Source of the DNA: Tubiluchus corallicola
Lineage: Eukaryota > Priapulida > Priapulimorpha > Priapulimorphida > Tubiluchidae
Reading direction: 5' to 3'
Assembly: GCA_030141605.1 (NCBI GenBank)
Contig: JAQGDQ010000647.1
Location: forward strand, 19,108 to 83,107
DNA: 64,000 nt
The notes below the pieces were generated by a model. It saw only the letters and a program-made list of their open reading frames with translations, did not search any database and had not been told where the DNA came from. Shown piece after piece: positions 12,410 to 48,500 of the stretch (its first letter is position 1; each line of letters begins with the position of its first letter). The translations under genes were made by a program, and so were the position numbers.

Positions 12410-12512
12410 CTACGCCTCGACCTCGTCCGGCTCTTCGCCTTTCAGACGTAAGCGAGCAAAGTCCTCGAATATTATATCGTCGTCTTGGTCGGCGTAGCAG
12501 TTCGCGTCCTCC
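12410..12512 (-). CDS. ARRB: beta-arrestin exon k (C-terminal tail and stop)
   Basis: Encodes [18 protein letters not shown] followed by [15 protein letters not shown] and a TAG stop, entered through a split Met codon (AT|G). The acceptor is [21 protein letters not shown] matches the vertebrate AP2-binding segment (DDDIVFEDFARQR), including both Phe and the Arg that locks the tail in the polar core. Nine extra residues separate it from the clathrin-box-like motif, and the acidic end is shorter than in vertebrates. Confidence 0.95.
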
Positions 12513-15500: not shown

Positions 15501-18500
15501 ATCTCAGAATAAATCTTCGGATAGTTAGAATAAGCCTTTTCACAGTTTTGTTGTGCGCACGCGCAGCTGATGTAGGTCAAACGTATAGTGTACCACAGTA
15601 ACGCATCTTAATTACAACTGTCACGTAACGTGTGGGTAACGCAAAACATGTTTTACATGGAGTTTACCTAATTATGCATTTACTAGCAGGAGCTTACATG
15701 GAAACAAGAAAAAATGTAAGTCTTAGCTACACCCGTCACGTGACATGTTGGTAAAGCAAAGCCGTCTGCCATGTAAGTTCGGTAATAGCAGTTGTTTTAC
15801 TTACTTAATGATGAATTTGTTTGCGCGCAGACTGATTTACTAACAAGATCTTACATGGAAACAAGAAAAAATGTAAGGTCTTAGCTAAACCCGTCACATC
15901 ACATTTTGGTAAAACAAAGCCGTCTGCCATGTAGGTTCGATAATAGCACTTGTTTTACATGGACTTTACTTAATTATGCATTAGTCTGTGCGTAGACTGA
16001 TTTACTAGCAGGATCTTGCTTGGAAACAAGAAAAAATAAAGTAGGTAAGGTTCTGGCTAGCTGTTAATCTGTTACTATTACAACAGCATGGGCTGCGAGG
16101 CGTTGTCAAGTGTACACAAGGGTGTTGTCTGGTTCACTTAACCTTTGACCTTTTCACAAATCATCATCAATCGTTGGAACTGTGAAAAAGCTTATTGCAG
16201 AATGAAAGAACGAGCAACTTGTTTCCTTGCCTAGAACGACACAACACGAACAAATCAGAGCCGCCGAACTCGAAACTTACCAAAGTCTTTAAAAAAAGTT
16301 TATTAAACAAATTCACTCACATTGTATCAAGAGTGATGAGATTTGTGTCGATGGGAGCCGTCCCATCTTGGTTTATGTTCATCTGCTGAGCAACGCTAAG
16401 CGGCCGACTCGGAGGAGGCGTCTCCGGGGGCTTCGGGTGGGTCAACGTGAATGGCAACTCCACTGATACGTCACTGAAATAAGCAACTATTAAATTATAA
16501 TATTCGTTTAAATGCTGCCATAATCAAAAGCACTAATAAATTTACAGTAGGAAATCAACGGGAACTAGGGGAATGTATCTCAGCACAGAAACTAGGAGAA
16601 TGTATCTCAGCACAGAAACTAGGAGAATGTATCTCAGCACAGAAACTAGGAGAATGTATCTCAGCACAGAAACTAGGAGAATGTATCTCAGCACAGAAAC
16701 TAGGAGAATGTATCTCAGCACAGAAACTAGGTGAATGTATCTCAGCACAGAAACTAGGAGAATGTATCTCAGCACAGAAACTAGGTGAATGTATCTCAGT
16801 ACAAAAACTAGGAGAATGTATCTCGGCACAGAAACTAGGAGAATGTGTCTCAGCACAGAAACTAGGAGAATGTATCTCAGCACAGAACTAGGAGAATGTA
16901 TCTCAGCACAAAAACTATGAGAATGTATCTCAGCACAGAAAGCAGGTGAACGTATCTCAGCACAGGAACTAGGAGAATGTATCTCAGCACAGAAACTATG
17001 AGAATGTATCTCAGCACAGGAACTAGGAGAATGTATCTCAGCACAGGAACTAGGAGAATGTATCTCAGCACAGAAACTATGAGAACGTATCTCAGCACAG
17101 AAACTAGGAGAACGTATCTCAGCACAGGAAACTAGGAGAATGTATGTCAGCACAGAAACTAGGGGAATGTATCTCAGCACAGAAACTAGGAGAACGTATC
17201 TCAGCACAGAAACTAGGAGAACGTATCTCAGCACAGAAACTAGGAGAATGTATCTCAGCACAGGAACTAGGAGAATGTATCTCAGCACAGAAACTAGTTG
17301 AATGCATCTCAGCACAGAAACTCGGAGAATGTATCTCAGCACAGAAACTAGGAGAACGCATCTCAGCACAGAAACTAGGAGAATGTATCTCAGCACAGGA
17401 ACTAGGAGAATGTATCTCAGCACAGAAACTATGAGAATGTATCTCAGCACAGAAACTAGGAGAATGTATCTCAGCACAGGAAACTAGGAGAATGTATGTC
17501 AGCACAGAAACTAGGAGAATGTATCTCAGTACAGAAACTCGGAGAATGTATCTCAGCACAGAAACTATGAGAATGTATCTCAGCACAGAAACTCGGAGAA
17601 TGTATCTCAGCACAGAAACTAGGAGAATGTATCTCAGCACAGGAACTAGGAGAATGTATCTCAGCACAGAAACTAGGTGAATGTATCTCAGCACAGAAAC
17701 TAGGAGAATGTATCTCAGCACAGAAACTAGGAGAACGTATCTCAGCACAGAAACTAGGAGAACGTATCTCAGCACAGAAACTAGGTGATGTATCTCAGCA
17801 CAGGAAACTAGGAGAATGTATCTCAGCACAGAAACTAGGAGAATGTACCTCAGCACAGAAACTAGGAGAATGTATCTCAGCACAGAAACTAGGTGAATGT
17901 ATCTCAGCACAGAAACTAGGAGAATGTATCTCAGCACAGAAACTAGGAGAACGTATCTCAGCACAGAAACTAGGAGAATGTATCTCAGCACAGAAACTAG
18001 GTGAATGTATCTCAGCACAGAAACTAGGAGAATGTATCTCAGCACAGAAACTAGGAGAATGTATCTCAGCACAGGAACTAGGAGAATGTATCTCAGCACA
18101 GAAACTCGGAGAATGTATCTCAGCACAGAAACTAGGAGAACGCATCTCAGCACAGAAACTAGGAGAATGTATCTCAGCACAGAAACTAGGAGAATGTATC
18201 TCAGCACAGGAACTAGGAGAATGTATCTCAGCACAGAAACTAGGTGAATGTATCTCAGCACAGGAAACTAGGAGAATGTATCTCAGCACAGAAACTAGGA
18301 GAATGTATCTCAGCACAGGAACTAGGAGAATGTATCTCAGCACAGAAACTAGGTGAATGTATCTCAGCACAGAAACTAGGAGAATGTATCTCAGCACAGA
18401 AACTAGGTGAATGTATCTCAGCAAAGAAACTAGGAGAATGTATCTCAGCACAGAAACTAGGAGAATGTATCTCAGCACAGAAACTAGGAGAATGTATCTC

Positions 18501-21500: not shown

Positions 21501-24500
21501 AGGAGAATGTATCTCAGCACAGGAAACTAGGAGAATGTATCTCAGCACAGGAACTAGGAGAATGTATCTCAGCACAGAAACTAGGTGAATGTATCTCAGC
21601 ACAGAAACTAGGAGAATGTATCTCAGCACAGAAACTAGGTGAATGTATCTCAGCACAGAAACTAGGAGAATGTATCTCAGCACAGAAACTAGGTGAATGT
21701 ATCTCAGCAAAGAAACTAGGAGAATGTATCTCAGCACAGAAACTAGGAGAATGTATCTCAGCACAGAAATTAGGTGAATGTATCTCAGCAAAGAAACTAG
21801 GAGAATGTATCTCAGTACAGAAAGTAGGTGAATGTATCTCAGCACAGAAACTAGGAGAATATATCTCAGCACAGAAACTATGAGAATGTATCTCAGCACA
21901 GAAACTAGGAGAATGTATCTCAGCACAGAAACTATGAGAATGTATCTCAGCACATGTATTTAAATGAAGTCAGAAAAATGCGAATGCCATTAGAATTAAT
22001 AGTTTTAGGTTTGCACTGTTATTTCAATCGATAGACTGTTATGATTTTTCATGTCTGCTACACGTTCTTACAATAAAATCGCTGATTCTGTTTATATTTG
22101 ACGACGTTGAGCAATAATTCTTTCTTTTCTCCACAGTGTGGTGTCACGTCGTTGTAGAATTTTTCCCACACAACATTAGGCTCTGTATACTTAGTCAATA
22201 AATCTTGTTTTTCTTTCCTGCGTCGCACCACAATACGGTGGTGCAACCAGCCTGTCTACGTGACATCTGTGATAAATGTTAATCGGAATTCAAGTGCAAG
22301 TGTTAAAATCTTCAGCTTGCATAATTAAAGTCAAACTAAACTCTCGCCATAATGTAAACTTTTACAACTTAAAATCCACTCTCATTACGAATATTTCAAT
22401 TTATTTTATTATAAACTTACTGCAAAACTTGTTTCTTCTGTTTTTTTATAACTTCGTTTTTAGCGGTATTGAATTAGAAGAATTTGACGAATGACAATGA
22501 GTACAGTCGCCAAAGATCAGTACCTCGTATGTCATTTTTGCTCACTCACGTGAAAGACGCGAAACATGGCGATCTTTACAGCAATGCACACGTTCGAAAT
22601 TCGCTAGAAAATGGTAAGTTGTTTAATTTATGAGTTTCTTTTGTTTAATAACTAAGGATTCCTTGTGTAATCATAATAATCTGTTAAGAAAAACTTCAAT
22701 GTCTCTTGGGGTTACGTAGGGTTTTAAAGGAAAGGTCAAGTCTTCCGGGAAGTTAGGCTTATTCGAATGTTCACGAAAAATGTGAGAAGGATTTAGTAAT
22801 AAAATTGCAATAAGCTACTCGTGTAACTAGTAAAATCACTTTAAAGTCGCGATCACTCCCATTTTCAATACTCATTATTCTTCTAATGATGTCATTCGTC
22901 TTCAAGAAAAGTAGTGCACTAAAAATCTTCGTCGAAAGTATATTGCATTTTTACAAAAATATCAGATAGCTAATTTTGAAATATTTTTGCACAAATATCA
23001 AGTAAGCTGCAGAAGTTTGAATTAGTTTAAGCAACGCGCACTTATGAAAAGTCACGATGCACTTATGAAAAGTCACGAAGTCTCCCAGTAATTTAAAAAT
23101 TAATGGCGCCAACCACCACGCCTGAAAATTTCTAGTCAGAGGTAATACATTTTAAATTTATAATTTATAGACAGTAATTCACAAATTTCTTTGTCATATT
23201 TTTCCAAGTTTAAGTAATAAAAGCAAAATAAATAACCCAACATACTCAGTTGTAGCGAATGACTCGCGAGGAACTATTTTGTAACGCGTAGAAACATAGT
23301 AGTAAGTAGTTCGGTTAGGCAGAAAACATGTGAAGAACATGGCTTTGTCATTGCTGTCGTCTTTATTATATTTTGTGTTTTACACAAGACTAAACTTTAT
23401 GTTACCGTTGAATATTGTGTTGCTACCAACGTTAATTTCTGTGAAATAAAACAATCATCTACAAAGAAAAAATAACACAATAGAGGAAGCCTGCACGCCA
23501 TGAAAGAAAAAATCATAAACACTGTCCGACACGAGTGACCTACTCTTTTCTTTAAAGGAAAACCGGACGATTGTGTAAACATGAGTTCAAAATAAAGAAT
23601 GCTATAAAATATTGAAAACTACAACAGCTTTTTTAAATCAAAGCTCAGATTAAATTTTAATTACCTCGGATACCCAAATTTCGTTAAACTTTCAAAGCTA
23701 CGCGCTGAATCTATTAAGACTGGCAGCAGCACTTTTTTCTCACATTCACGTGGCAGACAAATAGAAGGCGGTACCGTGATAACCGTGATCATGAACTGCA
23801 GTGTTAGTTTCTGACGTCATATGATGTAGAGCCCATTTTTCATGACATCATGAGCTTAAACAGTACTGTAACACTTATACAAATGTGCTTGACGCGCAAG
23901 GGAAGATGCCTGCCATTGCACAAACTGTGGTTAGTTTCTGACGTAAGCAATAGCTGTGTTCGGTTGCCGTTAATTAACTTTCTAAGCTAATTATTCAAAT
24001 ATAAGAAACAACTGCTAACTTTTATACGCAAGAAAATGTATATTTTGGACAGTAAATTAAAATGAGATTGAGTCTAAACAATCATCTGGCTTTCCTTTAA
24101 GAAGCAAACATACCTGCCATACGCCACTATGAGACGAACTTTTACTGCATATTTAACAATGATACCCAGGTTTTCTTTCTGTAGCGATTCGTTCATTCTG
24201 CAAAATAAAAACAACACGCGTTGATATTTAAAATAAACACAAAGCATCCTACGCAAGCAAATTTACCAGCACTGCACAAACAACTGCACTTTTTTTCCGC
24301 AGGAAATGTTCCCAGTAATTCAGGATAATAATCCGAGAACCTATTATCTTAAATGTCATGCTGTTTTCTTATCAGGCTTTTGTTTAACGAAGCCAATGTA
24401 AGAGAGAAAATTTACCAAGTTTTTTATACGCTGAACATTATGTGTGTGAGATTTTTAACAAGCATGACAACAAGGTAATGATACTGAATAGCTGGAAACA

Positions 24501-27500
24501 CACATTCGGCTCATAATCCTTACCGATCAATATAAAAAAAACAGCCTTCTGTTTGTTACATTTTCAGCTACACTTGTTACACCACTTACACTAGTTATAC
24601 CACTTAAAAAGTAAACATAATACTGTGAATTAAATAAAAACTAGACGCAATCTTAAATTGTAAACAATCTACCTTGTAAAATATTGAAAGTAAACATGCT
24701 ATTTTTCCAAAAACGACTTATTACCACACAAACACAATTTCACGTTCGCGCCACTAGTTCTTCGCTGTTACATGCATTTCGCCATTCGCTAGCTAGACGG
24801 GCACTAGCACCAGCATTTTGGTAATGCAGTGCACAAGAAACAGGTGCAGCACCTCTCAGTTCAGATGTGTTAGTTCGTGATGAACAACACACGTTCGACA
24901 GCTCATGCATGAGCACAGCGGTAAATTTAAAATTGGAATTTTTATTATAAACCTTGTGTTATTTATGTAAATGTTGAAGATGAATTTTCTGTGCGCAAAT
25001 GATATTATTTTGCAAAAAACGAGTAAAATTTCATACAGCAAGCCACAGCATTGCTTATTGAACCTTACTAACTCTCTTCATCAAACGTATCCAGTAAAAA
25101 ACACAAATTTACCAAATACCGCACGACTAGCACTCGTGACAGTAGACTACGACTTGCAATGCAAACGTTCACGGTTCAAATCCAGGTTCAGGCGAGTGTT
25201 TTTGCATCTACTAGCTTTGGTTTCAAGTTTGATTTAAAATCAGTGGTCGATAAACATGAAAACTGAGTGCATAAGTAAGTATTTGCATGCTCGCAAAGGT
25301 TCACGGTTCAAATCCAGGTTCAGCCGAGTGTTTTTGCATCTACTAGCTTTGGTTTCAAGTTTGATTTAAAATCAGTGGTCGATAAACATGAAAACTGAGT
25401 GCATAAGTAAGTATTTGCGTGCTTGCAAAGGTTCACGGTTCAAATCCAGGTTCAGCCGAGTGTTTTTGCTTTAGTTTTAAGTTTGATTTAAAATCAGTGG
25501 TCGATAAACATGAAAACTGAGTGCATAAGTAAGTATTTGCGTGCTCGCAAAGGTTCACGGTTCAAATCCAGGTTCAGCCGAGTGTTTTTGCATCTACTAG
25601 CTTTGGTTTCAAGTTTGATTCAAAATCAGTGGTCGATAAACAAGAAAACTGCATGCATAAGTAAGGATTTGCACGCTGGCACTAGTAAATAAACAGATCA
25701 GCACTTACATTGTCGATGAGCCAAGGTTCGTATCTTCATGTTTCAACTTGCCATCCAGGGCTAAGCCTCGCTTGTCTTTGTTATTAGCCAGTAACGGTGT
25801 GACGTAGAAAACCTTTGAAATTGTCGTGCACGGCGCGAGGGGAAAACCGTCTCTGCACAATACATGAAAAAATCGTTACGTGCAAAAACACAAATCTTAA
25901 CGTGCAAAAGCGCACGTCTAAATAAAGAGTTTGAAACAAGGCAACGTTAATAAAACTGGATTCGATCACACATCGGGCTTTGTACCTGAAGATTCGAAGG
26001 TTTCCACTGCTGCTCGTAGTTCCTGAACAGAGGGATTTCATAAACCAGCAAGAGTCGAAATCTTTGAAAGTTTTCAGTCACCGTCATAGTTTTGTGTGCA
26101 ACATTTAACTTAAAAGTACTTTTACCAATTTTGATTTCATCATTCGTTAAGTCAATTCAATTGCATGACAAGCACTTCTTAACGTTAACAGACGGTAACA
26201 ATAGATAGTTTCCATTACGGTCAAACGGCAAAAAATTTTGATTCTGAAATGACGTCACTACGATCACAGGCAGATCACGCTATTGTCTCTGGCGAGTTCT
26301 CGGAGAACCCGATAAAGTCGAATTCTCTAGACGATAGAAATATAAACAAAACATACAGTTACAAGATGAAGTGCAAATGTCGGTGGTACAAAGCAGGGAT
26401 GCTGATAATTGTGCTCTCGTCAGAGTTTCGTTTCGGCGAAATTTACTAAGTTTCATAGCCGAAATTTCCGATAATTTTGGGCAGCATTTTTCGGAGGTTT
26501 TACTAGTATTTGTCCAATTTACCCTTTCTCTTCTCTAAATGTCAAAAACCGATAAAAATCTTGGCTAAAATAGTTCAAATAAAGTGAGAATTTCGTTTAC
26601 TTAACAGTTTGTGACGCGATATTCACAGCAATGTGGCATATCTTCGGGGCTGGCCACTGTGAAGTTTTAGTCTCTCCAGGCCCAATCAACCGAAATACCA
26701 AACCACGTTTGAATTTACTTGAGCAAAATCATTTTTAATTTTGAAAAATTTACGAAATATATTCAACAAAACATCTACAAAACAAAATTTGTTTATTTTA
26801 ATGAAGAATTATGATCTTTTTAAACATTAAGGAAACTTAAATTCAAAAACATTGTAAAACATTAATTTTTCTAATGTAAGCCACTCCATCAAACTTCAGG
26901 TTCTTTACTATAAAACATCTTTGAGTTTTTATCAATAACCTTGAATCACAGCAAATAAAAGCAAAGAAACAAAAACAAAAAACAAAATATTTTACATTTT
27001 TTAGAATTTTCCTTTTTTCAGTGTTAACACTAGTCGGTTTTGCAAAAATGTTTCGGTTCGGTTTCTCATGTTTGATAAATTTCGGTTTCGGTTTGTAAAT
27101 TCGGTTTCGGTAACATCCCTGCTACCCAGCTTGAAATTTTGCAGAAACTGTCGAGGGAGACGATAAAACACCTACAATCAGCTTGTGATTGTACAACTCG
27201 CTCTAGAGTACAAATGATTACAGCCTACGATCACTAGGGGTGAGCATCGAACGTTCGAGTTCGAACGAGTTTTTTCAGTTCGAACTCGATTCGAATCCAA
27301 AACTGTAGATTCGAATAATTCAGCACTTCAATCACAGGTGTTCTTTATCACTAAAACGATTGAAACATCATGCAATTAGCATAATTTAGCAGTGATTTCT
27401 GTGCACAATTTTAAACAAATTACTAGTCGTTTTATTGCAGAACAAAATCTAGTGATTGGCATGATCTTTGTAAGATTAATTTTTGTTGCTGGTTCGAAAA

Positions 27501-30500: not shown

Positions 30501-33500
30501 AGTACGACAACTTACTCGGGTTCTAGCGTTGACACATTGCACTTGTACGAAGCGTTGTAAAACAAACATATTTCTGCATATTGCCTAACTGTAATATAAA
30601 GAAAAGATTTAGGCATGCCGTACAGAGAAAGCAACAGCGAAAGCTTGGCGACACACAACAGGTGGCGCTTGGAGGTTTACCAACAGGCACACAACGTTCA
30701 AGACATGCAACGATAACGAAGTACTACATTGGCTGCAGCCGCTCGGCGGCGACAGCCAACAGGGTTCCCACAGAAATTTAAAATAAATTTCCCGGACTTT
30801 TCCATGACTAGCACAGTTGCGGTAGTGCTAACGAAATTACACTAATCGCATTAAATAAACTTTCTTAATCCAATCATTTTTAGAACAGAAATCAAACCTG
30901 GAAGCTGCCATAGCAAAATTTTATTTGAACGCGAACTGCTGGAAAATATGTTTGGAAAAATATCGGTTCACCGCGATTATTTTCGCAACCCTTTCTAACT
31001 TCCCCGACTTTTCGACCCATTTTCATCATTTTCGCTGACTTTTTACCAAATTATCTTTTTCCCCGACTTTGATTTTCCAGGATACCCTGTACTTTGACAG
31101 AATTTCCATGACCGTGGGAACCCTGAGCCAATTAAGCACAGGTGAGAGCACAATAATTTACACACATCGAAAAGAAACGAGTGTGAACAACTGTGAGCGA
31201 GTTACTAGAGAAGGCGGCAAAAAGTATGGAACAGCAAAACAGCCAGACGTTGACCATACAGTCATCTACAAAGCGGTTCCTACACTCGGAGACATGCTGT
31301 TAGTGCAAGACCGGAGCAATTACGATTTCTGATTTGGCAGACTTACTCGCTTTCCAATTCGGCCACAGTGCATTTGTACTGAGCGGTAGAGAACAGGCAA
31401 ATGTCCGCAAACTGGCGCACTGGCAGGAACAAGACAAATAAGCGATTAATGATCGTCAAGGCGTCGGCCCAAATTAGCCATTACCGACAGCCGAGAGAAT
31501 GTATGTAGTCCGTAAAACCGTGATTGCATCGATAAATTATTGTTAGCGTTGTTAGCTTTGTCAAGAAACAGGGAAATAACTGAGCAATTTACAAAGTGAC
31601 AAGGCGACAGGTAAACAGGAAAATTTGCTCTGAAACGGCCGGTAAATTTACCAGAGGCGATGTTACAAAGTACACTGCCCTTTGTTACTTCAATGATTAT
31701 TTTGTTTTAGTAAATAGCAAAGGTGCAGGTAATGGCATGTTACCGTGGCGACAAAGACTAAGCAGCAGCATCGTAAACCAATGCCCGTTTAACAAAGCAC
31801 AAGAACTATTACGCAACGAACAATGTACTCCAATGAAAATCCATTCAGTAGGATTTCCGTTTACCAATCATTGCATACCTCTCTGTGGTGGAAAATTATG
31901 AAACACGCTTGAATTTATAATTATGTACGTTTTACTTAAATGTGTCATAATTATTTATGACATAATAGGAACTGTTAGAAACTGATAAAGTGTTGCCATG
32001 CCAATGTGTGCGCAAAATTTTTGACAATACAACGCCAAATTTTAAGTAATATTTAGATAAAACACGAGTTTCATCACTTTCTCATCGGGAGAAAGGTGAA
32101 AAATGGAAAAGAAAACAAATAAATAAATGAGAAAAAAGAAAAGGAGAAGCAATGCCTCTTTTTCTAGCGGATTTCCAAACATCAAGGATATTATGAGAAA
32201 AAATGAGGCAAATAGCCTTCAGCATAATGTTGATGTCTGTCTTATTTGAAACAAGGACTGCAAACATCTTCTCCCAAACGTAGTAGATTAATATCAATTT
32301 TACACGAAAACCCTATTAACAACGATTATGGCAAACCAACTTGAGAACAGGCTTGCCCTATTCGGGCCGGGTGTTAAACGGGTTAGCTTCACGGGTTGCG
32401 TTAGGCAACCAAAATATTTACTACAGTTCTCTGGTGCTAATCATTTTGCTCGAACGTGATTTTGCTTTAATTTAATTTAAAGCTGCTCTAATACTACTTC
32501 GGCGTGATTTTAATTACTGTGGCTTTAACATACATTCTATTTTAAGGTGATTTTAATCAAGCATTGTAGTTTTAAATTACATTCTATTTTTAACTAACCA
32601 TTAAGTTAACTAACCACGGTTTTAGCGTGACTTTGTAAATCATGATACTCATGCTTTGATTAATAAACGATGAATGCTTCTGATGCGACATGGATCGTAG
32701 ATCATTTATTTTAAGTTAATTTAAACTTAGTTAGTAATTACACGAAAATATAATGCCATATTGTCTACTGCATGCCTGAGGGTCATTCCCGGTACGTAAC
32801 GCAACAGCTCAGTAGTGTTACAGAATACAGTATAAGGGAATTATTGAAGGGAAAGGAAAGGGAATTTCAGAGTATATCCCTAGGAGTTTTCCAAAAAAAA
32901 ATTTATTTAACTTAGCATTACACTTAACTGTTTGAAAGATTTGGGCAATTGCAAAAGAAAATTGTTAATAATTTAAAACGTTCGCGTCAATCGGTAAAAC
33001 AGCTTTGCATTGTCATCCCAGTGTGCACCGCTGGCTCACCAAAAACACATTAATGATCTATCGCCTTCCCAGTGTGCACCGCTGGCTCACCAAAAACACA
33101 TTAATGATCTATCGCCTTCCCAGTGTGCACCGCTGGCTCACCAAAAACACATTAATGATCTATCGCCTTCCCAGTGTGCACCGCTGGCTCACCAAAAACA
33201 CATTAATGATCTATCGCCTTCCCAGTGTGCACCGCTGGCTCACCAAAAACACATTAATGATCTATCGCCTTCCCAGTGTGCACCGCTGGCTCACCAAAAA
33301 CACATTAATGATCTATCGCCTTCCCAGTGTGCACCGCTGGCTCACCAATAACACATTAATGATCTTACTGTTAAAAAAAAGTAATTTATAATCTTGCTTA
33401 GTCAGTGAAGTGCGTGTGTTCGCTACGAATGCTCTAATTATTTTTCAAACTTTATGCAATGTTGTCTAAACTTGCTTCAAACGATTTACCGTTAAAACGG

Positions 33501-36500
33501 CTGCACCTAACGGTCATCTTGGGAGCTTAAATTTGCACGTTTCATACGACGTTACTGCCCACGCAAGACATGTATAATGCAATAACGCAGAGCACGTAAA
33601 TAATATAAAATCTCAAAGCTTAATTTATGAAGAGTATTTTCTTGTGTTGTAACTAATGAAACAAGAACATCAAAACCAACGAGACCCCAGATCTCACGCC
33701 CTATTAAATCATAATTATAATGTATGAACTGAAGACTAGTACAATATTCCATCTACTTACAATTACAGGTTAAGAGAAGAAGTCGGAGGCTAAAGGAGTA
33801 ACACGGGGAAGCATAAATGCTTATAAAATACTTATAACCGAGCTGCTCGACTCACTCACTACGCGACACGGCCTCGTTAATAATGCAGAATGCCATCAGC
33901 TTAAAATCTCGCAATTTTACAAGTTCACAATTACTGCCCAACGTGGAATTCGCGGATTGCGGTTGTACGGCTCACTTTTACGACATTACATGGCTACAGT
34001 ACTCCGACAAGGGGAAAAATTTCTTTCAAACGAATTGGTAAGGTGCTTGAAAATAAGGATAGTTTTAAAACTCGGCAGTCGCAGCAAAACTACCAGCGGG
34101 AATTCTTACAATGCAGCCTTACAGAGAAAGTTAAACGTGCTAAAAGCACTTGCTTTGCAAACATTTTATATATGGTTCCCAATGGTCAGCAGCAAATGGA
34201 TGCCAGGCTCTTATTCTCGCGTCACTGTAGCTAACTGAAGCTACAGTACCCGAGTAATGCGGCAAAATTTTACACATGACTTTCAAAGCAGCTATTCACA
34301 AGAGTCGTAGTATGAAATGACAACTTCTCATAAATAAATTATTTTTAAAATCCGACATGTATATCGATCTAGCTGTAATTACTGTAGTGACTGTTTATTC
34401 AAATTGTATGATGTTAGTTCTTAAACAGTATGTAGTTTAGTTCTTAAATACTATGTTGTTTAGTTCTTAAATAGTCTGTTGTTTAGTTCTTAAATTGTAT
34501 GTTGTTAGTTCTTAAATAGTATGTTGTTAGTTCTTAAACAGTATGTAGTTTAGTTCTTAAATACTATGTTGTTTAGCTCTTAAACAGTATGTAGTTTAGT
34601 TCTTAAATACTATGTTGTTTAGTTCTTAAATAGTATGTTGTTTAGTTCTTAAATTGTATGTTGTTAGTTCTTAAATAGTATGTTGTTTAGCTCTTAAATA
34701 ATATGTTGTTTAGTTCTTAAATTGTATGTTGTTTAGTTCTTAAACAGTATGTAGTTTCGTTCTTAAATAGTATGTTGTTTAGTTCTTAAATAGTCTGTTG
34801 TTTAGTTCTTAAATTGTATGTTGTTTAGTTCTTAAATACTATGTTGTTTAGTTCTTAAATAGTCTGTTGTTTAGTTCTTAAATACTATGTTGTTTAGCTC
34901 TTAAACAGTATGTAGTTTAGTTCTTAAATACTATGTTGTTTAGTTCTTAAATAGTATGTTGTTTAGTTCTTAAATTGTATGTTGTTAGTTCTTAAATAGT
35001 ATGTTGTTTAGCTCTTAAATAATATGTTGTTTAGTTCTTAAATTGTATGTTGTTTAGTTCTTAAACAGTATGTAGTTTAGTTCCTAAATAGTATGTTGTT
35101 TAGTTCTTAAATAGTCTGTTGTTTAGTTCTTAAATTGTATGTTGTTTAGTTCTTAAATACTATGTTGTTTAGTTCTTAAATAGTCTGTTGTTTAGTTCTT
35201 AAACAGTATGTAGTTTAGTTCTTAAATAGTATGTTGTTTAGTTCTTAAATAGTCTGTTGTTTAGTTCTTAAACAGTATGTAGTTTAGTTCTTAAATACTA
35301 TGTTGTTTAGTTCTTAAATAGTCTGTTGTTTAGTTCTTAAACAGTATGTAGTTTAGTTCTTAAATAGTATGTTGTTTAGTTCTTAAATAGTCTGTTGTTT
35401 AGTTCTTAAACTGTATGTTGTTTAGTTCTTAAATAGTCTGTTGTTTAGTTCTTAAATAGTCTGTTGTTTAGTTCTTAAACTGTATGTTGTTTAGTTCTTA
35501 AACTGTATGTAGTTTAGTACTTAAATACTATGTTGTTTAGTTCTTAAATAGTCTGTTGTTTAGTTCTTAAACAGTATGTAGTTTAGTTCTTAAATAGTAT
35601 GTTGTTTAGTTCTTAAATAGTCTGTTGTTTAGTTCTTAAACTGTATGTTGTTTAGTTCTTAAATAGTCTGTTGTTTAGTTCTTAAATTGTATGTTGTTTA
35701 GTTCTTAAATAGTCTGTTGTTTAGTTCTTAAACTGTATGTTGTTTAGTTCTTAAATAGTCTGTAGTTTAGTTCTTAAATAGTATGTTGTTTAGTTCTTAA
35801 ATAGTCTGTTGTTTAGTTCTTAAATTGTATGTTGTTTAGTTCTTAAATACTATGTTGTTTAGTTCTTAAATAGTCTGTTGTTTAGTTCTTAAACAGTATG
35901 TAGTTTAGTTCTTAAATAGTATGTTGTTTGGTTCTTAAATAGTCTGTTGTTTAGTTCTTAAATAGTCTGTTGTTTAGTTCTTAAATTGTATGTTGTTTGG
36001 CTCTTAAATAGTATGTTGTTTAGTTCTTAAATAGTCTGTTGTTTAGTTCTTAAATTGTACGTTGTTTAGTTCTTAAATTGTATGTTGTTTAGCTCTTAAA
36101 TACTATGTTGTTTAGTTCTTAAATTGTATGTTGTTTAGCTCTTAAATACTATGTTGTTTAGTTCTTAAATTGTATATTGTTTAGTTCTTAAATTGTATGT
36201 TGTTTAGCTCTTAAATACTATGTTGTTTAGTTCTTAAATTGTATATTGTTTAGTTCTTAAATAGTATGTTGTTTAGTTCTTAAATTGTATGTTGTTTAGT
36301 TCTTAAATAGTATGTTGTTTAGTTCTTAAATTGTATGTTGTTTTGTTCTTAAATTGTACGTTGTTTAGTTCTTAAATTGTATGTTGTTTATTTCTTAAAT
36401 AGTATTTTGTTTAGTTCTAAAATTGTATGTTGTTTAGTTCTTAAATAGTCTGTTGTTTAGTTCTTAAATTGTATGTTGTTTAGTTCTTAAATTGTATGTT

Positions 36501-39500
36501 GTTTAGCTCTTAAATACTATGTTGTTTAGTTCTTAAATAGTATGTTGTTTAGTTCTTAAATTGTATGTTGTTTTGTTCTTAAATTGTATGTTGTTTATTT
36601 CTTAAATAGTATTTTGTTTAGTTCTAAAATTGTATGTTGTTTAGTTCTTAAATTGTATGTTGTAAGTTCTTAAATTGTATGTTGTTTAGTTCTTAAATAG
36701 CATGTTGTTTAGTTCTTAGTATTTGGTAATTTACTAACATACCTTACAAAACTTATGAAAAAAACGACAAATCACTTTACAAACAGTTCTACTTTTCTCT
36801 TACCAAATCAAAAGACAGACAAAATTGAATTCATACCTGTAATTTTGATCTTCTTTACCGTCTTGTTGGAATTATTTGTAACTTGTACATTAACGGCTAT
36901 TGATTCTCCGTGATAATACATCTGTAAACACACGAAAGTAAAGCCTGGTTCACACTACTGATTATGAACATGGTACATGCGAAAAACCTTTATTTCTGCG
37001 ACCATCCTCTACTAAATAATTCTTTGGAACAAACAGTATTATGCAGACAGAAAAATGGATGCGATTCTTCCATTTGTAACTGAAATTTCGATATCAAAGT
37101 TCAAAACTGTTCACACCTTTCCTTGTCAGAAAAACGCATATGATAGACTATAGTTTTGACTTCATTTTAAAGGAAAAATCAAAGGAAAAATATGCATTTT
37201 AACATAAATTAAGAAAATTGAAGTCACTTTCTTAAAATACGCTTTGCTTTAAAATGCAAAAGAAATTTAAAGATATCTCCCACCAGATGAACACCGCTGC
37301 CCTCATATTTGAAAAAAAATCACATAAACTTGTGTCTGCAGGGTAGCGTGAATGCGGCGAAGGCAAGCTGTGATGAAGCTACGCGTTACAACATTTCTAT
37401 AGATTTCGCAGAAGTTCAGTTATTCTAACGTTGTACAGTGGAACCTCGACTTACGAAAACCCAATTATACGAAAAATTCAGAATACGAATCGAGTTTCGA
37501 AAAAATTTCCATCCCGTTAAACGAAAAAATACGAAAATGAAAATCGAAAGTGCCACCCGACAGCGGTCCTCCTAGAATGCATTTCGTAGCATCGCGTGAA
37601 CGCATTCAATAACCATGGGTCCGAAAAAAGCAAGTGCCCAGCGGTAGTGATAAGAAGAAAAAGATGATGTTGATGAAAACAAAGCTTGAAATTATAGCTA
37701 AATATGAAAGTGACATGCGTGCAAGGGAGTATGAGCGAAACCCTTCGACGACCGGTCTTTATCATTAATGAACACATTTCTTTCGGTTGGCTACAATATT
37801 TACACTTTACACGACTGTTTTTTGGGGGGCTGGAACGAATTACGCCATTTATAGGGTAAATCTCGTCTCATAATACGAAAATTCTAAGATACGAAAACCC
37901 CTCAGGAAGAAATTAATTTCGTATCTGGAGGTATCACTGTATTTAACTGTGTTTATATAAAAATTAGTTATTTGATCAAGTTTAAAGTGGTTACATAGCT
38001 TTAAACCACGGAATTAAAAACCGTAAGCTGTGTACATTAATTGCGCATATAATTAATGTACATATTTCTTCAGTTTGAGAAACGCATGCAAATTTGCGAG
38101 CATTAGTAAGTGGCGGGCAGGTTAATTAGTTTCTAGAATTCGCTCTATAAGTCAAAAAAGATTGCTGAAGCACCTGGCGGAATAAGTGTTTATGTTGCAC
38201 GGTAACCGGATGACGCCATTTTTCATCTAAAAGTAGCGCGCTCAAGCGTGAAGTAATCACGACTTTTAACCAATATTACGAATTAAATAAGATGCTTATC
38301 ACAATTTTGTTGCTGAAACTTTCCAACATTTTCTCAAATATTCAGCTTCTCAAATGCGTTGACTTTTCCTTTAAACTCTCATTAGACAACAATCATCATA
38401 AACAATCGCAAACACTTACAGCGCCTTCTTACTGTCTCGTACGGCGCCACCACGCAGGGAGATCGCTACGCTCTTGATCAAGTTGTTAAATCCGCCTCAA
38501 AAATTGTAGGAATTCAACAGCAATCAATGGCACATTTGTATGAAACTAGGGTCGCAGAGAAAGCGCAAGTTATCATGAAAGATGAATTCCATCAGGGTAA
38601 TAAATACTTTGAAATGCTTCCCCTCCTGTCAGAGATTCCGCTTAATCAACGCTAAAACCACAAGAACTTTAAATTCATTCTATCCCGTTGCAATTCGCAC
38701 CATCAACAGTAAATCTCCAATATTAATAATCTATGTCACTGTACAACTGTGTTAATCTCCTTGTTGTCTCCATGAGTTATTGCAGTATGTAAATTTCACT
38801 GCATGTGTTACGCTATAATGACAATAAATTGCTTACTTACTTACCAGGGTTCCCACAGAGTTTTAAAATAAATTTCGCTGACTTTTTCGTGACTTTTTCC
38901 TGACCAAATATTGATTTTCCGCGACCAAGATAAGCAGAAATTGCATTACCAGTACACATATTCAAACATTTTTGTGTATGGACATTCATACATATACTGA
39001 TATATAATATGTCGGCCAATCATTATTTTTGGAACAGAAATCGAAACTCGGAGCCTGGTATAGAAAAATTTTATCTGAACACGAAAAATATGTTTGGAAA
39101 AATATCACTTCACGGCGATTAATTTTGCAACCCTTTCCAATTTCCCCGACTTTTCGCCGCATTTTCATCATTTTTCCTGACTTTTTACTCAAATTATCTG
39201 TTTCCCCGACTTCTTCATCACTTTCCAGGATAGCCTGTATTTTCAAGGGTTTTCCTGGACTTTCCCTGACTGTGGGAACCCTGAAATAGTGCTAAATTTG
39301 CTGAAAAAATACCAACCCCTTTATCTAACGAAGCCTCTAGATGCAGAGGTCCAGGGCTCATCATAAAATCTTTTGTCACCTCGGCACTTGGCTGTGGTCC
39401 GGGGTCCTCAGGTGCGTACATTACTTTTCTAATAGCCAATCGGACGGAATTCCTGAAATGCGTAAAATCTCTAATGTCAAAACAGTAAACCGACCTCTAG

Positions 39501-42500
39501 ACGAGGATAATTGATTGCATATTGATTAATGAGTTATTGAATATTTAAAATACATTAAAGGAAAACCAGATGATTTGCTACTTAGACGGGCACTAACGCC
39601 TCCATTTCGGAAATGCGTTGCACAAAAAAAGATGCTGTACTTCTCCGTTCAGATGTGCAAGTTTGCAACGAGTTCGACAGCTCATGCGCAAGCATAGTGG
39701 AAAATTTAAAATGTGAATTTTTTATCTTAAACTTGTCTAGTTTTAGTACAAGACACTGAATATCTTACAGTAGCTACTGTACTTCAATTTTCGCTTTCAC
39801 AAACACGTGCAACACGCTCGTGAAATGTTTTTGCTGTAGAAAAATTATGTCAGTTTGTGATGACATGAACAGTTGGGTTCACCCTCCATTAATTAAGTTT
39901 TTAATCTATTATTTAAACATCAGAAAGGCTTTTGCAGTATTAAATGTGTTAAAATGTATTTTTTTATTGGACCGGAAAATGGGGTAGTATATGAAATATC
40001 ATCCTGTCTTCCTCTAAAGGTTTATTAATTTTCTTCTAACACTTAATAAAAACTATGTGTCGGCATATGCCGTCTTAAGTAAACAAATGCAAAAAATGTA
40101 AACAAAAGTCATTAGACTCCACAGGTAATCCATGTAATTAAAACAACACAACGATGTTAAAACAATTTAGTTAAGAATCATGCCAAACGTTTCTACAGAG
40201 CTGTTGCTGTCATCATCAGTGCAAAATTTTTACAAACATGGTCGGTCCTGAAAGAGTTAAGAAGCTTCAATCGCCTATAAGAGTGGGAAGTGGTGCTGAC
40301 AAGCCACTGCTGCACCAGCGTTTAGTTTTTTGCTGGATTACTGCTGCGTTTACCTGTCTGATGGCAGATTTCTTTTATTTTAGAATTCTGCTTTCCAGTG
40401 TCAGGCATATGATAATCTGCGCTCAATTATCTAACAATTGTTGAAGCTGTTGCATCATCACAAATACGTACAGCTAGAGCTAATATAAAAGCAAAAACGT
40501 TCAATTGAAAATTAAAGTCTGCAGGTAAGGAAATTGAACTTTGTTCAAGCGTAACCCAGTATTAAAACTTCTCTATATCTTGAAATCTTGGAAATAATTA
40601 AATCCTCAGGAAAAGCAATTACAAGGGGTTCTCGTCACTGTCACGTCACAACAATTAATTAACGTTTTCTCTACTCGGCAAAAACGTTTTAGTTCCTGTT
40701 AAAAGTTTCAAGCCAACCCATCTAATAATGATCTTTAATTTTCATTTCTTAACGCTATTTGATGAGTTTTGGAGCAATGGGAGCAATGGGAGCTGGTCTA
40801 GCTGGATTTCCCAATTTTTCAGCAATGAAAATAAAATTTTTTGAAAATGAAAATAAATTTAAACAGCAAACGTTACGGGCGTATGCTGAAAACACGACGA
40901 AAACGTTTCGTGTCGGTTTTTGTTCAAAGTCGCAATTCATTTTTAAATGATGGCAAAAAACTAGACATCGCAGACTTGAAGAAATGAAATAATTTAGCAA
41001 AAAGTAACGCGACTCCACACAAACTGCATTACGCTGATTTTACGAAACATTTCGCAAATTCTTTTTCCACGCCAACAATGATAAGACACAATTTATGACT
41101 TCTGCTTGCACCTGCTGCATATATAGAGTCTCCAGGGGAAGCCAGGCAACAAGTCAGAAGATATTACTCATTCACTTCTTTAAAGTCTCGTTCCACCTAC
41201 TGTAGGCATTGAGGTATCAACATTTAGTAGAGCATTCCACCCACTTTTATCTGCAGCTAACAGAGTCTGCTCCTAAAGGTGGATTTCATTGAAGTTGTTG
41301 AACATCTTCATTTATCTTAGCTATCCAAGTTGTTTTAGGTTTACCAGGTGGTTTTTTCCAAGGTTTTAAGGCTTCCTTTAAGTTTAAGGCAATTCTTACT
41401 GGTGCTTCATTTGGTAATCTTAGAAGATGTCCTATCTATCTTAATCTTCGGATCTTGACCTTTGAACTTCAATAAATTTCTTTCATTCTGATATACAAAT
41501 CCTGATTTTTGATTATGTATGGTCATCTTATCTTTAAAACTTTCCTTAGAAGACTTCTATGAAATGTGTCAATCTGCTTTTCTTGAGTAATCGTTAAACC
41601 CCCGAGTTTTGCCGTTGTGCATAAATATGCCAGTAACGTTTTTTTACAAGGTTTTAAGGCTTCGTTTAAGGTAATTCTTACTGGTGCTTCACTTGGTAAT
41701 CGTAGAAGATGTCTTTCATACGGCAAAGAAAATACTGATGAATTTGGTTGCCAGGCAACAGTGCGGATCATTTTACAACAGTGTACGGCTGCCAACAATG
41801 TAGCAACAATCACTGTAATGTTTCCTCTCCTCTCGTCTTACCGTTTGTGTGGCTTCTCTTCCATTGTCTCCGCAACGTACGTCTTCAGTTCGTAGTCGAC
41901 CCCGCATGGTTTCCCGGTGTCGCCCGGAGCAGGCTGTAGTGTCACCGATGCGGGAGCATATGACGGCAACTGAAAGAATCAAATAGATATTTTAAACAGC
42001 ACACAAAAATGAAATCGAGAATGCTGCAACGTTAGTTAAAGGAAAAGGAAAGACAATTTTGAAGAACTTTCCATACGAACTCACATTACTTAGTAATACT
42101 CCTTAGTTGCTTAAAAGCTTAAGTAACTGGAAAAAAGAATTCTTATTAATTTGAAATGTTCGATCCATCTGGTAAAATGGCATAGCATCACCCCTTCCCA
42201 GTGTGCACCACTGACTCACCAAAAAGGTATTATTAATCTTAATGACAAGTTAAAGTAATTAATACTTTTGCTTAGTTAGTGAAGTGTGTGCTAGCCATGC
42301 TCTGATTATTTTTTTAAACCTTGGGCAATGTTATCTAAATTTGTCTCAAACAACCGACTGTCAAAACAGCACCGCCTAACGGTCATCGCAGGAGTTTAAA
42401 TTTTATACAGCACTGCTGTTAATGCAAGCTATGTTTGCAACAAAGCAACAAGTGGATTGTTCAACATTTTAAGACGAATTTTTTAACTTGTCGAAAGCAA

Positions 42501-45500
42501 ATGATTCTATTGTCTATGACCTACAACACGGGAGTGCAAACTGCGGCCCGCGGGCCACTTGCGGCTCGCCGAAAGATCTTGTGTGGCCCACGAGGAGGTT
42601 TGTCAACGTAATGAAGGTGCGGCCCACGCGATCCAGCTGAAGTCCACACCAATATAGCAAAGATAGTGCGGGTAGTTTTTTCCTCTAGATCGGATGGCAT
42701 TAACCCGTACAAGACCGTTGTCACTTAATGTCACTGTCCGACATGACGAAATATATGGTTTTTAATATAAATTTTAATAACTTCTAAAATAGTTTCTTGA
42801 GTGTAGTATTGTAGTAGTGATGATGCGCGCAAATCGGATGCAAAAAAATCGTTATTAGGTCCTACTGTACTTGGCTCCGTGACCAAACTGCATGTGGCCC
42901 ACAGGAATTGCGGGAAAATTTAATGTGGCCCGGCCAGTCAGATAATTTGCACACCCCTGGTATACAAGATGCAGTTGAAACGACAAGTCTCACAAATTTT
43001 TGTGAAAAAGAACGGGTATTTCTCCAATGATTTACCTGAAAGAAGAATGGATATGCATTCTGTCCGAGTTTTTTAATCAGCCGTTCTTGCAGTCGTGTCA
43101 GCGGCTTCTGTTGAGCGGCATCCGGAGGAAAAACCTGAAAAACACAAACTGCGCCTTTAGACAAAAAAATGACGACGCGGGGTCGGCAGTTCCAATAATT
43201 TGACGCGAAATAACCAACGTAGTTGTTAAAATACTTTACAAATTCTAGTCGTCTGATTAGATGTGGAAAAGATCCACTTTTACTGGACCTGGATGAGCAC
43301 CAGAGCGGGATAACCTTCAAGGTTTTTTGCGTAGAAATCTAAAGCGGAAATGATGTTTATCGACGAACAAATCTCTTCATTCCATCAGATTTGTGGCTAA
43401 AATTACAAATTTAGTGATGTTTGTTCGAAAGCAAACAATATTTTTTGTTTAGGATTTATCAAGTTTATGTATAAATTTTCGTATATTGTTTGTTTGTTTA
43501 AAATTACGACATAAAATTAGACACTTTTGTTTCGTCTTACGCAGCATTAAAACATTGGCTTAAAATTTTCTGAAGCAGCACCCCCGGTTCAAATTATGAG
43601 AATGTTTATGAACGAAAATGTTGCAAGTGTTTGGGAGTTATTGATATCTATATGCTATTACCACAAAAAAACTAATCTTTTGGAAGAGATTTAATGGTTA
43701 AAATGTTGAGTCTGCACTTTTTTATATAAACAGATTTCATTTTACAGAACATTTGGCATACTGAAAAGCCTGTCTGATTAGCATTTAGGAATGAGCAACT
43801 ACCATAAAGTTATGGTAGGCAGTGGTGGCTCGTGTATAAGTACTGTGGAAATGCGGCACTCCCTATTTTTACTCACTATTATCGATAGTATTCAATATGA
43901 TCAATTTAGTTCTTTCTTTATATTTGTGCGTAACCACAGCACGTGAGGGTAATACTGTTTCATTCACAGCCCAGCACAGTGCGCTCCAGCAATGCGGTGT
44001 TTGGCTGTTGTGTGCATGCGGCCATGTACGAATGAGTCCAGGTAGAAAAAGTACTGTCGCTAACACAGTTTGTTGCTAGTTGTCATGCGCTTACCGTGAA
44101 TGGATCAAGCTTCAACTGTAACAATTTGGACTATTAGTAAGCAAATAATATTTTTTTGTTTAGGATTTTATCAAGTTTATGTATAAACTTTCCTATGTAT
44201 GTTTATTTAAAATTAAAATTACAAATTACAACATTAAAATTCCATATGTTTGTTTCATTTTACACAATATTAAAACAATTGCTAAAAATTTTCTGAAGCA
44301 GCACCCCACTAATTCTATCTACGAGCCGCTACTGGTCTACTGCTCTGCTAACAAGCAATTTCAGTATAAGCTAAGCCAAGATCGTTACCCTAAAAGTATG
44401 ACTACTTGGGAAAATACTATTGCATAGTTAGTTCGTAATAACAAAGGCGGGCGGGCGTATTTCATCTGAATACGACTCCACTTTTGGAAATGGCATCCAG
44501 TAAGAGCAAATCATTAGAAAAGAAACCCGAGCGTTCAGTATCATTTACGGCAAGCTTAACATTTTCTAAACCATAACCGCATTAAAACTCGACTTTCATC
44601 CGATGCTGAAGAACTCTCGCAAGAAGAATCGGTGACACGTGTCACCTCGAACATGAGTAGCTCTACTAAACCAACATCAGGCAACATCGTTAGAGATTTC
44701 GATACGATCAAACAGGTACACGACCCCCAGTCGGGATAATTACAAGAAACCACAACCTGGAAGATTTGAACTGCTCCCATTGTGAGCTTAGCACAATGGA
44801 AATGACATATAATGGCAGTGGTTACTCCAGTTGTGTTAGAAACTGGAAGGCACACTAATATCACAGAAGATCAAAGATTGTATCATTTTTGTGGTCAGTT
44901 ACTGGTCAGAGACTGAAAAACATGTTTTTATTGCATTGTCCCCTTTATGTCCCCGGATATTCGCATTTCGTTATTCCAGTGTCTAAGCACAAAAATCAAT
45001 AATTTTAATGAGTTCAATGATAATGATAAATTACGTCAGATAAGTTAGGTGATATATGTTTAAAAGAATGTGCCAAAACCTGCCACCTAGTGGCGGAAAG
45101 GAGAAATGTTTTAACTAGTGTAATGATATGTTTTAATGTTTGTTTAATGACCGATTTAATTTACGTGTAAATGTAAGGTAAGTTTTAATGTAAAATGGTT
45201 GTTTTAATGATTTTTAAGGTGTCACATAACTCTGTCGATAGATTGGCTTTTATTTCACTGTAAGTGTGCACACTTTTGTGTTTCAAATTGTTGTGAAATA
45301 AAACATGACCACTATAATTAACTAGCTATGCTATACTGTACTATAACTGCTGTGTAGTGGATTTACAGGCGCTCACACTTAGAATACCTGAGCAATTACA
45401 GTGAATTATAGACATAAAGCTTATTAGATGATGACGAATGTTGCACCTGTGCTCCAACATAGGCTCAAGGTACATCAGGTGTCGCCAAGATGCATTTGAT

Positions 45501-48500
45501 TACGACAACACGGCACAAGAAGAAAGTGATACAATCCCTCGAAAATAACAGCAAGAATTTTAGATCATTTCAACAAATACAGAAGTTTTAAACTGTTGCA
45601 ATGCGTACGATATTGGTGCAATGTTGATGCAATGTGTACGATATTGGTGCAATGTGTACGATATTGGTGCGATGTTGGTGCAATTTGTACGACATTAGTG
45701 CAATGTTGATGCAATGTGTACGATATTGGTGCAATGTTGATGCAATGTGTACGGTATTGGTGCAATGTGTACGATATTGGTGCAATGTTGATGCAATTTG
45801 TACGACATTAGTGCAATGTTGATGCAATGTGTACGATATTGGTGCAATGTTGATGCAATGTGTACGATATTGGTGCAATGTGTACGATATTGGTGCAATG
45901 TGTACGATATTGGTGCGATGTTGGTGCAAATTGTACGACATTAGTGCAATGTTGGTGCAATGCGTAGGATATAGGTGAATTGGTGCAATGTGTACGAGAT
46001 TGGTGCAATGTGTATGACATAGGTGCAATGTTGGTGCAATCTGTAGGATATAAGTGAAATGTTGGTGCAATTTGTACGATACTGGTGCAATAGGTGCCAT
46101 GTTGGTGCGATGTGCGAGATATAGGTGTACTGTTGGTGCAATGTGTACGACATAGGTACAATGTCGGTGCAATGTGAAAGATATAGGTACAATGCTGGTG
46201 CAATGTGTACGATATAGATGCAATGTGTACTATATAGGTGCAATGTTGGTGAAATGTGTACGATATTGGTGCAATGTTTTAAGCCTCTCTTTGATTTCGT
46301 TTCACAACGATTGTCGTTAATCGATCGAGAATGCAGGGAAGCTTTGTCTTTCAAGGCAGGTAATTAAGATAACTCTCTTGCACTGAAACCAGGTAATTAA
46401 CGAGCCTCACCTGCATCGAGGCCAGGTACAAATCCTTCCTGAACGTGAGCCCCAGGACGTCCAAATCCTCCCGTCCATAGCGGAAGGCAGCGAGAACGTG
46501 AGCGTAGACCTTTCTGTCCTTCAAGTAGTCTGGATCAATTAAAACAACGCCATCTGTAAACAGAATTGTGAAATTATTAGAAAACGTAATTGAAATGGTC
46601 TGGAAATATTAATTCAATGTTTATAATAGCAAAAAAACTACTAAAGAAGCCATATTAAGCTTATCTTTTTTGGTTTCCTATTAAAATGGCTGCGCGTAAC
46701 GGTCATAGCGGGAGTTTAAATTTATATGTTTAATACAGCGTTACTGCCGACGCAAGCCCTGTATGCAAAAAGGCAGTAAGTAAGTGGTATAAAATTTCAA
46801 GACAAATTTTTTCAGCTTTATGTAAGCGGAGGGTTCTCTTGTGGTTAAAACTGTGTGTAGGTTGTATAAACAATAGGTGTTCCAAGTACTCATGCAAATT
46901 AAGTTTAAAAAATATGTTCTATTAAAGGAAAACCGGATGATTGTGTAAACATGAGTTCAAAATAAAGAATGCTCTGAAATATTGAAAACTACAATAGCTT
47001 TTTTTAATCAAAGCTTACATCAAATAATAATTACCTCGGACACTCAAATTTCGTTAAACTTTCAAAGCTACGCGCGGCTCAGTGAATCTACTAAGATTGG
47101 CGGCGGCGCCTTTTTGCCACGTGCGCGTGGCCGACAAATAGAAGGCGGTACCGTGATAACCATGATCATGAACTGCTGTGTTAGTTTCTGACGTCATATG
47201 ATGTAAAACCCATTTTTCATGACATCATGCGTTTAAGCAGTACTGTAACACTTACGTAAACGTGCTTGACGCGCAAGGGAAGACGCCTACCATTTCACAA
47301 ACTGTGGTTGGTTTCTGACGTAAGCAATAGCTGCGTTCGGTTGCCGTTAATTAACTTTCTAAGCTAATTCTCAAATATAAGGAACAACTGTTAACTATTA
47401 TAGGCAAGAAAACGCATATTTTGGACAGTAAATTAAAATGAGATCGAGTCTAAACAATCATCCGGTCTTCCTTTAACTAATATCCTTTCCCTTGTACTTT
47501 GCCCAATAAAAGCCTCCAGCCATTATATCAACTTGAAATTCATTAATTGCAACTCGAATGCATTATTGTTGCCACGAAAATTTACTGTTCGCTAACGATT
47601 AAATTTTTAATTAATTTCATACGTCGACTTCTACTAAAATAACCATAAAAGCATACCCTGTGCAAAACAAAATGTCAACATAATTAAAATTTCTGCAAGG
47701 ATGACGGTACTTGATTACATGGAGAATTTGTGGGGCACAGAAAGTTCTGAAAAACGTCTGTCCGCAATTACTCAAATTCCACAATTAATTAAGCTCAGTA
47801 GAAGAACAACCCAATTCAGAGCTACTAACTCATGATTATAACAGAGCAGAAAGTTAATGGAACACACGATGATTTTGCATTTTCAAGTTGGATAAAAATT
47901 ATACATTTTTTAAAACACAATTGATACTGCAAAAACGGTTCTGATAATTAAATAATAGGTTAAAATCTTAATTAACGGCGGGCGAACCCAACTATTGATG
48001 ACGTCACAAACTAACATAATTTTCAACAGCCAATATATATTGCACGAGCGTGTTTGTGAAAGTGAAAATTGAAGTACAGTGCTACTGTAAGATATTCAGT
48101 GTGTTGTATTAAAACTAGGCAAGTTTTAAGATAAAAATTCAAATTTCAAATTTGCCACTGTGCTCAGGCATGAGCTGTCGTAACAAACTAACACATCTGA
48201 ACTGAGAGCTACTGCCCCTATTTTTGTGCAATCCGTTTCCGAAATGCAGGCGCTAGTGCCCGTCTAACTAGTAAATGGCGAAATGCACGTAACAGTGAAG
48301 TACTAGTGGCGCAAACGTGAAATTGTGTTTGTGTGGTAATAATTCTTTCACGTAAATCATTTTTGAAAAAATAACATGTTTCCTTTCAATATTTTAAAGA
48401 ATAGATTGTTTTGACATACAGTTTAGATTGGGTCCAGTTGTGCTTTAATGCAAATTATATACCTTTCCTTCCTTGGCAAGATTGAAGTAAATGATTGATG

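Follow-up and report, generated by a model that had tools for sequence, protein, structure and literature searches.

The beta-arrestin gene

The window, i.e. the whole 64,000-nucleotide stretch of DNA analysed here, carries on its minus strand a beta-arrestin gene whose exons b to k run from 63107 to 12410 and span most of its length. Beta-arrestin turns off many receptors for hormones and neurotransmitters. We located this gene by tblastn, using a beta-arrestin sequence as the query, and set the splice sites of exons b to k by eye and with a script. The resulting reading frame from exon b to exon k encodes 402 amino acids. The features of the gene that are relevant here are the following.

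63047..63107, minus strand: exon b (tblastn and gene model)
46411..46553, minus strand: exon c, single copy, spanning the greater part of the receptor-discriminator element of the N-domain (residues 45-86)
43036..43134, minus strand: exon d (gene model)
41842..41969, minus strand: exon e (gene model)
39317..39452, minus strand: exon f, with the non-consensus donor GGG/gttggt
36837..36921, minus strand: exon f2, constant, upstream of the pair (...KKIKIT; its last base is the first base of a Val codon)
31347..31419, minus strand: exon g1, canonical C-loop and receptor-discriminator exon
30589..31346, minus strand: intron between g1 and g2, 758 nt
30760..31125, no strand assigned: short inverted-repeat element, MITE-like, with CAGGGTTCCCAC ends, inside the g1-g2 intron
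30516..30588, minus strand: exon g2, alternative copy of exon g1
25709..25852, minus strand: exon h, constant, downstream of the pair (...EDTNLGSST)
24114..24197, minus strand: exon i (gene model)
16321..16473, minus strand: exon j (gene model)
12410..12512, minus strand: exon k, with the C-tail motif and the stop codon

The apparent donor of exon f, at position 39317 of the window, is an unusual 5' splice site, selected because it preserves length and frame. Both spliced products, with g1 or with g2, contain the Arrestin_N and Arrestin_C domains over the Pfam cut-offs, the Arrestin_C score being 73.8 bits for the g2 product versus 76.9 bits for the g1 product. A phmmer comparison made with the g2 isoform aligned it over its full length to chains of beta-arrestin-1 from solved structures (E 1.6e-161), and more weakly to visual arrestins (cone arrestin, E 6.2e-128; best S-arrestin, from rods, E 4.1e-115). 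Exon k has a C-tail motif of the pattern DDIxFEDFAR, which we take to be the AP-2-type motif of beta-arrestins. At the other end of the gene, we searched the 37.4 kb from exon b to the contig end and found no N-terminal exon with the pattern VFKKxSPNxK, presumably the segment with the phosphate-sensing lysines. This exon may be divergent, lie farther off, or be outside the assembly.

Three large minisatellite arrays lie in the introns of the gene (34401-36718, 16563-21954 and 48655-50898, with units of 23, 27 and 42 bp, respectively) and a fourth large one (9646-11487, 41-bp units) lies beyond the arrestin stop codon; these arrays overlap many long mechanical open reading frames. The intron between exons h and i also has a tandem repeat, at 25160-25681, with a unit of 132 bp. 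The unit includes GGTTCAAATCC, similar to a tRNA B box, and is possibly a tRNA-derived repeat. A second copy of the element with CAGGGTTCCCAC ends is found at about 38846-39282, just downstream of exon f.

Two versions of the C-loop exon

Exons g1 and g2 are each 73 nt long and lie 758 nt apart. An initial annotation of this DNA had placed two 73-nt exons on the minus strand at 31347-31419 and 30516-30588, with coordinates that proved correct, and had described them as stop-free, with like phases, AG acceptors, and GTAAGT donors, all of which are found in our gene model. More precisely, the acceptors of g1 and g2 consist of an AG after a pyrimidine tract (cttgttcctgccag; ttctttatattacag), the donor is GA/GTAAGT in both, and each exon encodes 25 residues in frame without stops. 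Their entry and exit phases are common, the upstream exon ending and the downstream exon starting with one codon base.

Splicing the gene in silico with g1 alone or g2 alone gives an open frame of 402 amino acids. Including both shifts the frame, the product reading ...ELESD before a stop directly after the junction codon, and including neither also shifts it, with a stop after 30 residues. Since an exon of 73 nt does not hold a whole number of codons, and both or neither shift the frame, productive use of g1 and g2 is predicted to be mutually exclusive by frame alone, in line with the earlier proposal, made from the exon length, that a transcript uses only one copy.

The two exons are identical at 46 of 73 nucleotides and 16 of 25 amino acids. 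When used as a tblastn query, the g1 peptide matches g2 with an E-value of 5e-8 and 64% identity, which shows that their likeness is not due to chance. The tandem duplication suggested at the outset is thus borne out by the two neighbouring exons, which are homologous and have the same phase. We found no convincing third copy of exon g in the window, searching by tblastn with the g1 peptide and with exon-g peptides of other animals, and there was one convincing match apiece for exons c to f, f2, h, and i. The only match of the g2 DNA in the whole assembly (343.5 Mb) was g2 itself.

The g1 peptide is identical to that of proteins of Mytilus, Mya, Nautilus, and Daphnia. The peptides of g1 and g2 had been called related yet different, which is apt: with 16 of 25 residues in common, g2 has three substitutions at the tip of the C-loop (S245Y, T246N, and Q248S, in arrestin-2 numbering) and six others (F238Y, D240E, T252N, A254S, E255T, and S258P), while it retains R236, I241, L243, F244, Y249, and K250. 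The Arg and the Lys said to be kept in both exons correspond to R236 and K250, as placed by the alignment to beta-arrestin-1.

We consider it likely that exon g was duplicated in tandem, that one version is spliced into each mRNA, and that the gene makes two beta-arrestins that probably engage receptors differently. Long ago, a single 73-nt exon would have been duplicated in tandem, giving rise to two coding versions of the C-loop segment (residues 235-259). A given mRNA would include a single version: g1 would give the conserved beta-arrestin, and g2 a form with an altered C-loop tip (Ser245Tyr, Thr246Asn, Gln248Ser) and a few changes in the neighbouring strands. Transcripts with both exons or neither would be frameshifted and removed by nonsense-mediated decay. 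Because the frameshift and the decay suffice together, exclusivity would be enforced whatever regulates the choice. This choice would be regulated by tissue or stage, and the two proteins may prefer different receptors or dock onto the receptor core at different angles. We infer from the sequence that both exons are spliced in vivo.

The segment encoded by exon g

When aligned to beta-arrestin-1, exon g covers residues 235-259 of arrestin-2. It nearly coincides with the receptor-discriminator element of the arrestin-2 C-domain, given as residues 233-262 in the available text of PMC11173308. The initial annotation held that this segment includes the C-loop that contacts intracellular loop 2 (ICL2) of the receptor, and the complexes tabulated in the available part of PMC10866553 agree with it. 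The ICL2 contacts listed there are I241, L243, and Y249 in the complex with beta1AR, and N245-T246 or F244 in two NTSR1 structures. Hence, two of the changed tip residues of g2, 245 and 246, are ICL2 contacts in one of these published complexes (PMC10866553). A different receptor preference of the g1 and g2 proteins is therefore plausible. The idea is better grounded than was initially stated, as exon g matches the element at 233-262 and residues 245-246 touch ICL2.

It is also conceivable, if somewhat unlikely, that both isoforms are made and that the swap mainly alters inositol-phosphate or membrane binding, oligomerisation, or the orientation on the receptor, and not receptor preference. 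The segment includes R236 and K250, which we take to be residues that bind IP6, an inositol phosphate. In addition, the C-loop mutant F245A of arrestin-3 showed no significant change in binding to four GPCRs in the available text of PMC6420155, whose abstract prints Phe255Ala and mild, variable effects. This result is a caution for the idea of a changed receptor preference as well, although the Phe hit by this mutation is retained in g2. What speaks against such a reading is that R236, Y249, and K250 are unaltered in g2, and that three of its nine differences are at the receptor-facing tip.

Exon g in the arrestins of other animals

We compared the gene with arrestins of other animals, using the best 120 of 3876 proteins in a full-length search, so that the comparison covers the nearest relatives only. 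Exon by exon, 123 of the 124 retrieved proteins (P0027 was dropped) were set against the Pinctada protein. Exon g is in general well conserved, with a median identity to Pinctada of 92%, versus 72.5% for the mean of the seven other exons over the 123 proteins. In three proteins it is instead the least conserved exon: in Dimorphilus (P0074) it has 28% identity (next lowest exon 79%, mean of the others 88%), in Lingula X3 (P0107) 52% (next 73%, mean of the others 85%), and in Tubulanus X2 (P0070), narrowly, 68% (next 72%, mean of the others 86%). On either side of exon g, f2 and h appear canonical in each of these proteins, although Tubulanus has four extra residues at the border between g and h. 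These are hints of alternative versions of exon g in Lingula, Dimorphilus, and Tubulanus, the weakest being that of Tubulanus; they are known from proteins alone, and the isoform names of Lingula and Tubulanus are database labels. Bdelloid and tardigrade proteins vary in exon g too, but it is not their least conserved exon.

If these versions were related to g2, the pair would be an ancient alternative exon of protostomes and not a local duplication. Besides the low conservation of exon g, the proteins of Lingula (X3), Tubulanus (X2), and Dimorphilus have in common that all are without Q248. Yet g2 matches g1 at 16 of 25 residues, versus 13 for Tubulanus, 9 for Lingula, and 7 for Dimorphilus, exon i of Tubulanus is nearly as low as its exon g (72%), and a tree of so short a segment would not be reliable. 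We thus regard an ancient origin as unlikely, and favour a tandem duplication within this gene. We also rejected homology of g2 with exon g of any of Lingula, Tubulanus, Dimorphilus, the bdelloids, or the tardigrade, which the identities do not support: the highest identity of g2 to these other versions is 16 residues (Adineta), against the same number for g1. A search with the region of Lingula X3 returned only itself and Liolophura.

We then have eight pairs of related entries, not all of them from a single species, that can be compared across exons c to i. Five pairs show no difference and two show single-residue differences. The eighth pair is Zootermopsis X3 and X4, with exon h as its sole difference. 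Arthropod beta-arrestins (P0087, P0088, and P0016, from Zootermopsis and Penaeus) have this exon in two versions, and in one Penaeus model the two copies follow one another.

A tree built from the window together with 55 of the 124 proteins placed the window beside Gordionus (support 99/90), and then with tardigrades and arthropods (98/88); the branch of Gordionus is long and flagged as unsure, and the root serves for drawing only.

Evidence of coding constraint on exon g2

The differences between g1 and g2 number 7, 7, and 13 at the first, second, and third codon positions. Three methods gave a dN of 0.26-0.29, with a saturated dS (not computable, 12, and 17). When sequences were evolved neutrally to 27 differences, at least 16 residues were kept in none of 20,000 runs starting from g1 and in 2 of 20,000 starting from g2. 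This test is generous and confounded, because the silent changes may all stem from the conserved g1. We therefore rely on a conservative test in which only g2 changes, up to its nine amino-acid differences, in 20,000 neutral runs. A sequence both stop-free and fitting the arrestin profile as well as g2 was obtained in 0.7% of the runs: 58% of them were stop-free, and 1.3% of these fitted the profile like g2. The profile was built on 56 distinct segments, taken from 112 of the 124 proteins, the other 12 having been missed by the pattern and left out. Of the nine changed residues of g2, six are known from other arrestins at the corresponding site, compared with an average of 2.2 for the stop-free runs (P 0.007), four of these six each resting on one distinct segment.

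These results make neutral decay of g2 unlikely. They lend moderate support to the view that g2 has coded for protein ever since the old duplication, and the case that the sequence makes for a second coding exon is good. Could g2 still be a decaying duplicate, a pseudo-exon that is rarely or never spliced and whose open frame is a remnant? In favour of this, 58% of the neutral runs remained stop-free despite nine amino-acid changes, and we found no g2-like loop among 5.8 billion clustered proteins, where all four candidates carry the canonical FSTAQYKC; a g2 isoform could be hidden in that set, since its clusters were made at 90% and the isoforms differ by 9 residues. However, g2 has the exact length of 73 nt, an intact acceptor, a GTAAGT donor, and preserved phases, and its changes fit the arrestin profile better than those of 98.7% of the stop-free neutral runs, which leaves decay improbable. 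It is very improbable that g2 is a poison exon, whose joint inclusion with g1 (...ELESD, then stop) would tune the arrestin dose by decay without any g2 protein, as the reading frame of g2 itself seems to be under constraint and a pure poison exon needs no such constraint.

Introns around the pair

Intronic RNA structures that compete with each other are a known, though not universal, means of making exons mutually exclusive. We compared 15 pairs of intron segments, each 171-400 nt long and all from this one genome, and found no support for docking-selector RNA pairing around the two exons (z between -2.07 and +1.86 relative to shuffled sequences). The g1-g2 intron has three GCATG motifs (31297, 30708, and 30618), one of them 49 nt after g1 and the others 120 and 30 nt before g2. 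Relative to the gene-wide rate this corresponds to a P of about 0.02, or 0.004 without the inserted element, for a motif that was picked after looking and is only seventh among the enriched 5-mers. Under the usual Rbfox rule, motifs at these positions, downstream of g1 and upstream of g2, would promote the use of g1 in the presence of active Rbfox. Rbfox-type regulation of the pair is thus a weak lead. The h-i intron (24198-25708 of the window) has six GCATG motifs, as dense as in the g1-g2 intron, and no alternative exon is known there.

The only gene of its type detected in this genome

The genome was searched with the g1 product at E <= 1, a search that a very divergent visual arrestin could escape, and all 12 matches were exons of this gene. 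The recovery of g2 among them, with 60% identity over 30 amino acids and an E-value of 0.009, shows the sensitivity of the search. A paralogous arrestin as the source of g2 was rejected on the same ground, as the search returned this gene alone. With Pfam at E <= 0.001, the genome yielded 14 matches to Arrestin_N and 9 to Arrestin_C, all of them outside this gene. The 14 Arrestin_N loci, of about 3.1-3.4 kb each, reach at best an E-value of 0.23 against this protein and look like alpha-arrestins. These Pfam searches could overlook another intron-rich arrestin, since the short exons of this gene itself went unlisted. By sequence similarity, this is the sole gene of the visual/beta-arrestin type detected in the genome. 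With all 12 matches in one gene, the g1/g2 pair seems to be the only source of variety that this genome has for this part of arrestin.

Relation to known systems and significance

Local duplication of exons is known in other genes of the GPCR pathway. G-alpha genes are a case in point, with GNAO exons 7-8 in vertebrates and preGNAI/Q/S in amphioxus (PMC5896119, available text). As proposed here, the alternative exons of GNAO encode regions that couple to active GPCRs, with one set per transcript; GNAO duplicates its final pair of exons (PMC5896119), whereas the beta-arrestin gene duplicates one internal exon of 73 nt. The G-alpha cases are from deuterostomes (PMC5896119), while the present gene groups with ecdysozoan arrestins, a placement that is uncertain.

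Splicing also produces several forms of arrestin from one gene in vertebrates. The long and short forms of beta-arrestin-1 are distinguished by an 8-residue insert, which our alignment places at about residues 333-340. The p44 form of arrestin-1 is truncated at its C-terminus (PMC11173308, available text). Unlike g1/g2, neither p44 nor the insert swaps homologous exons or changes the C-loop. Another case is exon h of Zootermopsis and Penaeus, where homologous alternative copies occur in the same gene family and in the adjoining exon. They affect exon h and not the C-loop exon, and are known from database isoform labels alone; among the PMC matches listed, we found no literature on them.

A further parallel was engineered. 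Chimeras of arrestin-1 and arrestin-2 had residues 45-86 and 233-262 swapped, the second segment being nearly the same as exon g, and exchanging both elements reversed the receptor preference (available text of PMC11173308). In the present gene the C-domain part alone comes in two versions, exon c of the N-domain being single.

Mutually exclusive exons have been described in many human genes, in a source whose available text does not mention arrestin (PMC9741552), and the available part of a survey of deuterostome arrestins has no mention of exon duplication, alternative splicing, or the C-loop (PMC5501109). We found no arrestin with tandem alternative exons among the PMC titles and abstracts listed, a scope outside which most subscription papers fall. 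The claim of the initial annotation that no described arrestin has this exon pair agrees with these PMC listings, but database isoforms of other phyla suggest a phenomenon that may be wider.

Hundreds of GPCRs are served in vertebrates by two non-visual arrestins, and invertebrates have one (PMC11173308, available text). One might tentatively propose, with more doubt than confidence, that invertebrates diversify receptor choice by splicing, through repeated duplication of exon g (here, and possibly in Lingula, Dimorphilus, and Tubulanus) and of exon h in arthropods, and that subtypes encoded by splicing take the place of the gene duplicates of vertebrates. The pair described here draws attention to candidate alternative exons of other phyla. 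It also provides two naturally occurring C-loop variants, with nine residues between them that differ, which would be useful for dissecting how arrestins recognise receptor loops. Since the duplicated exon is the mapped receptor-discriminator segment, it suggests that receptor preference may be encoded by splicing in a single non-visual arrestin, and one gene could probably provide this animal with two arrestins that have distinct receptor tastes.
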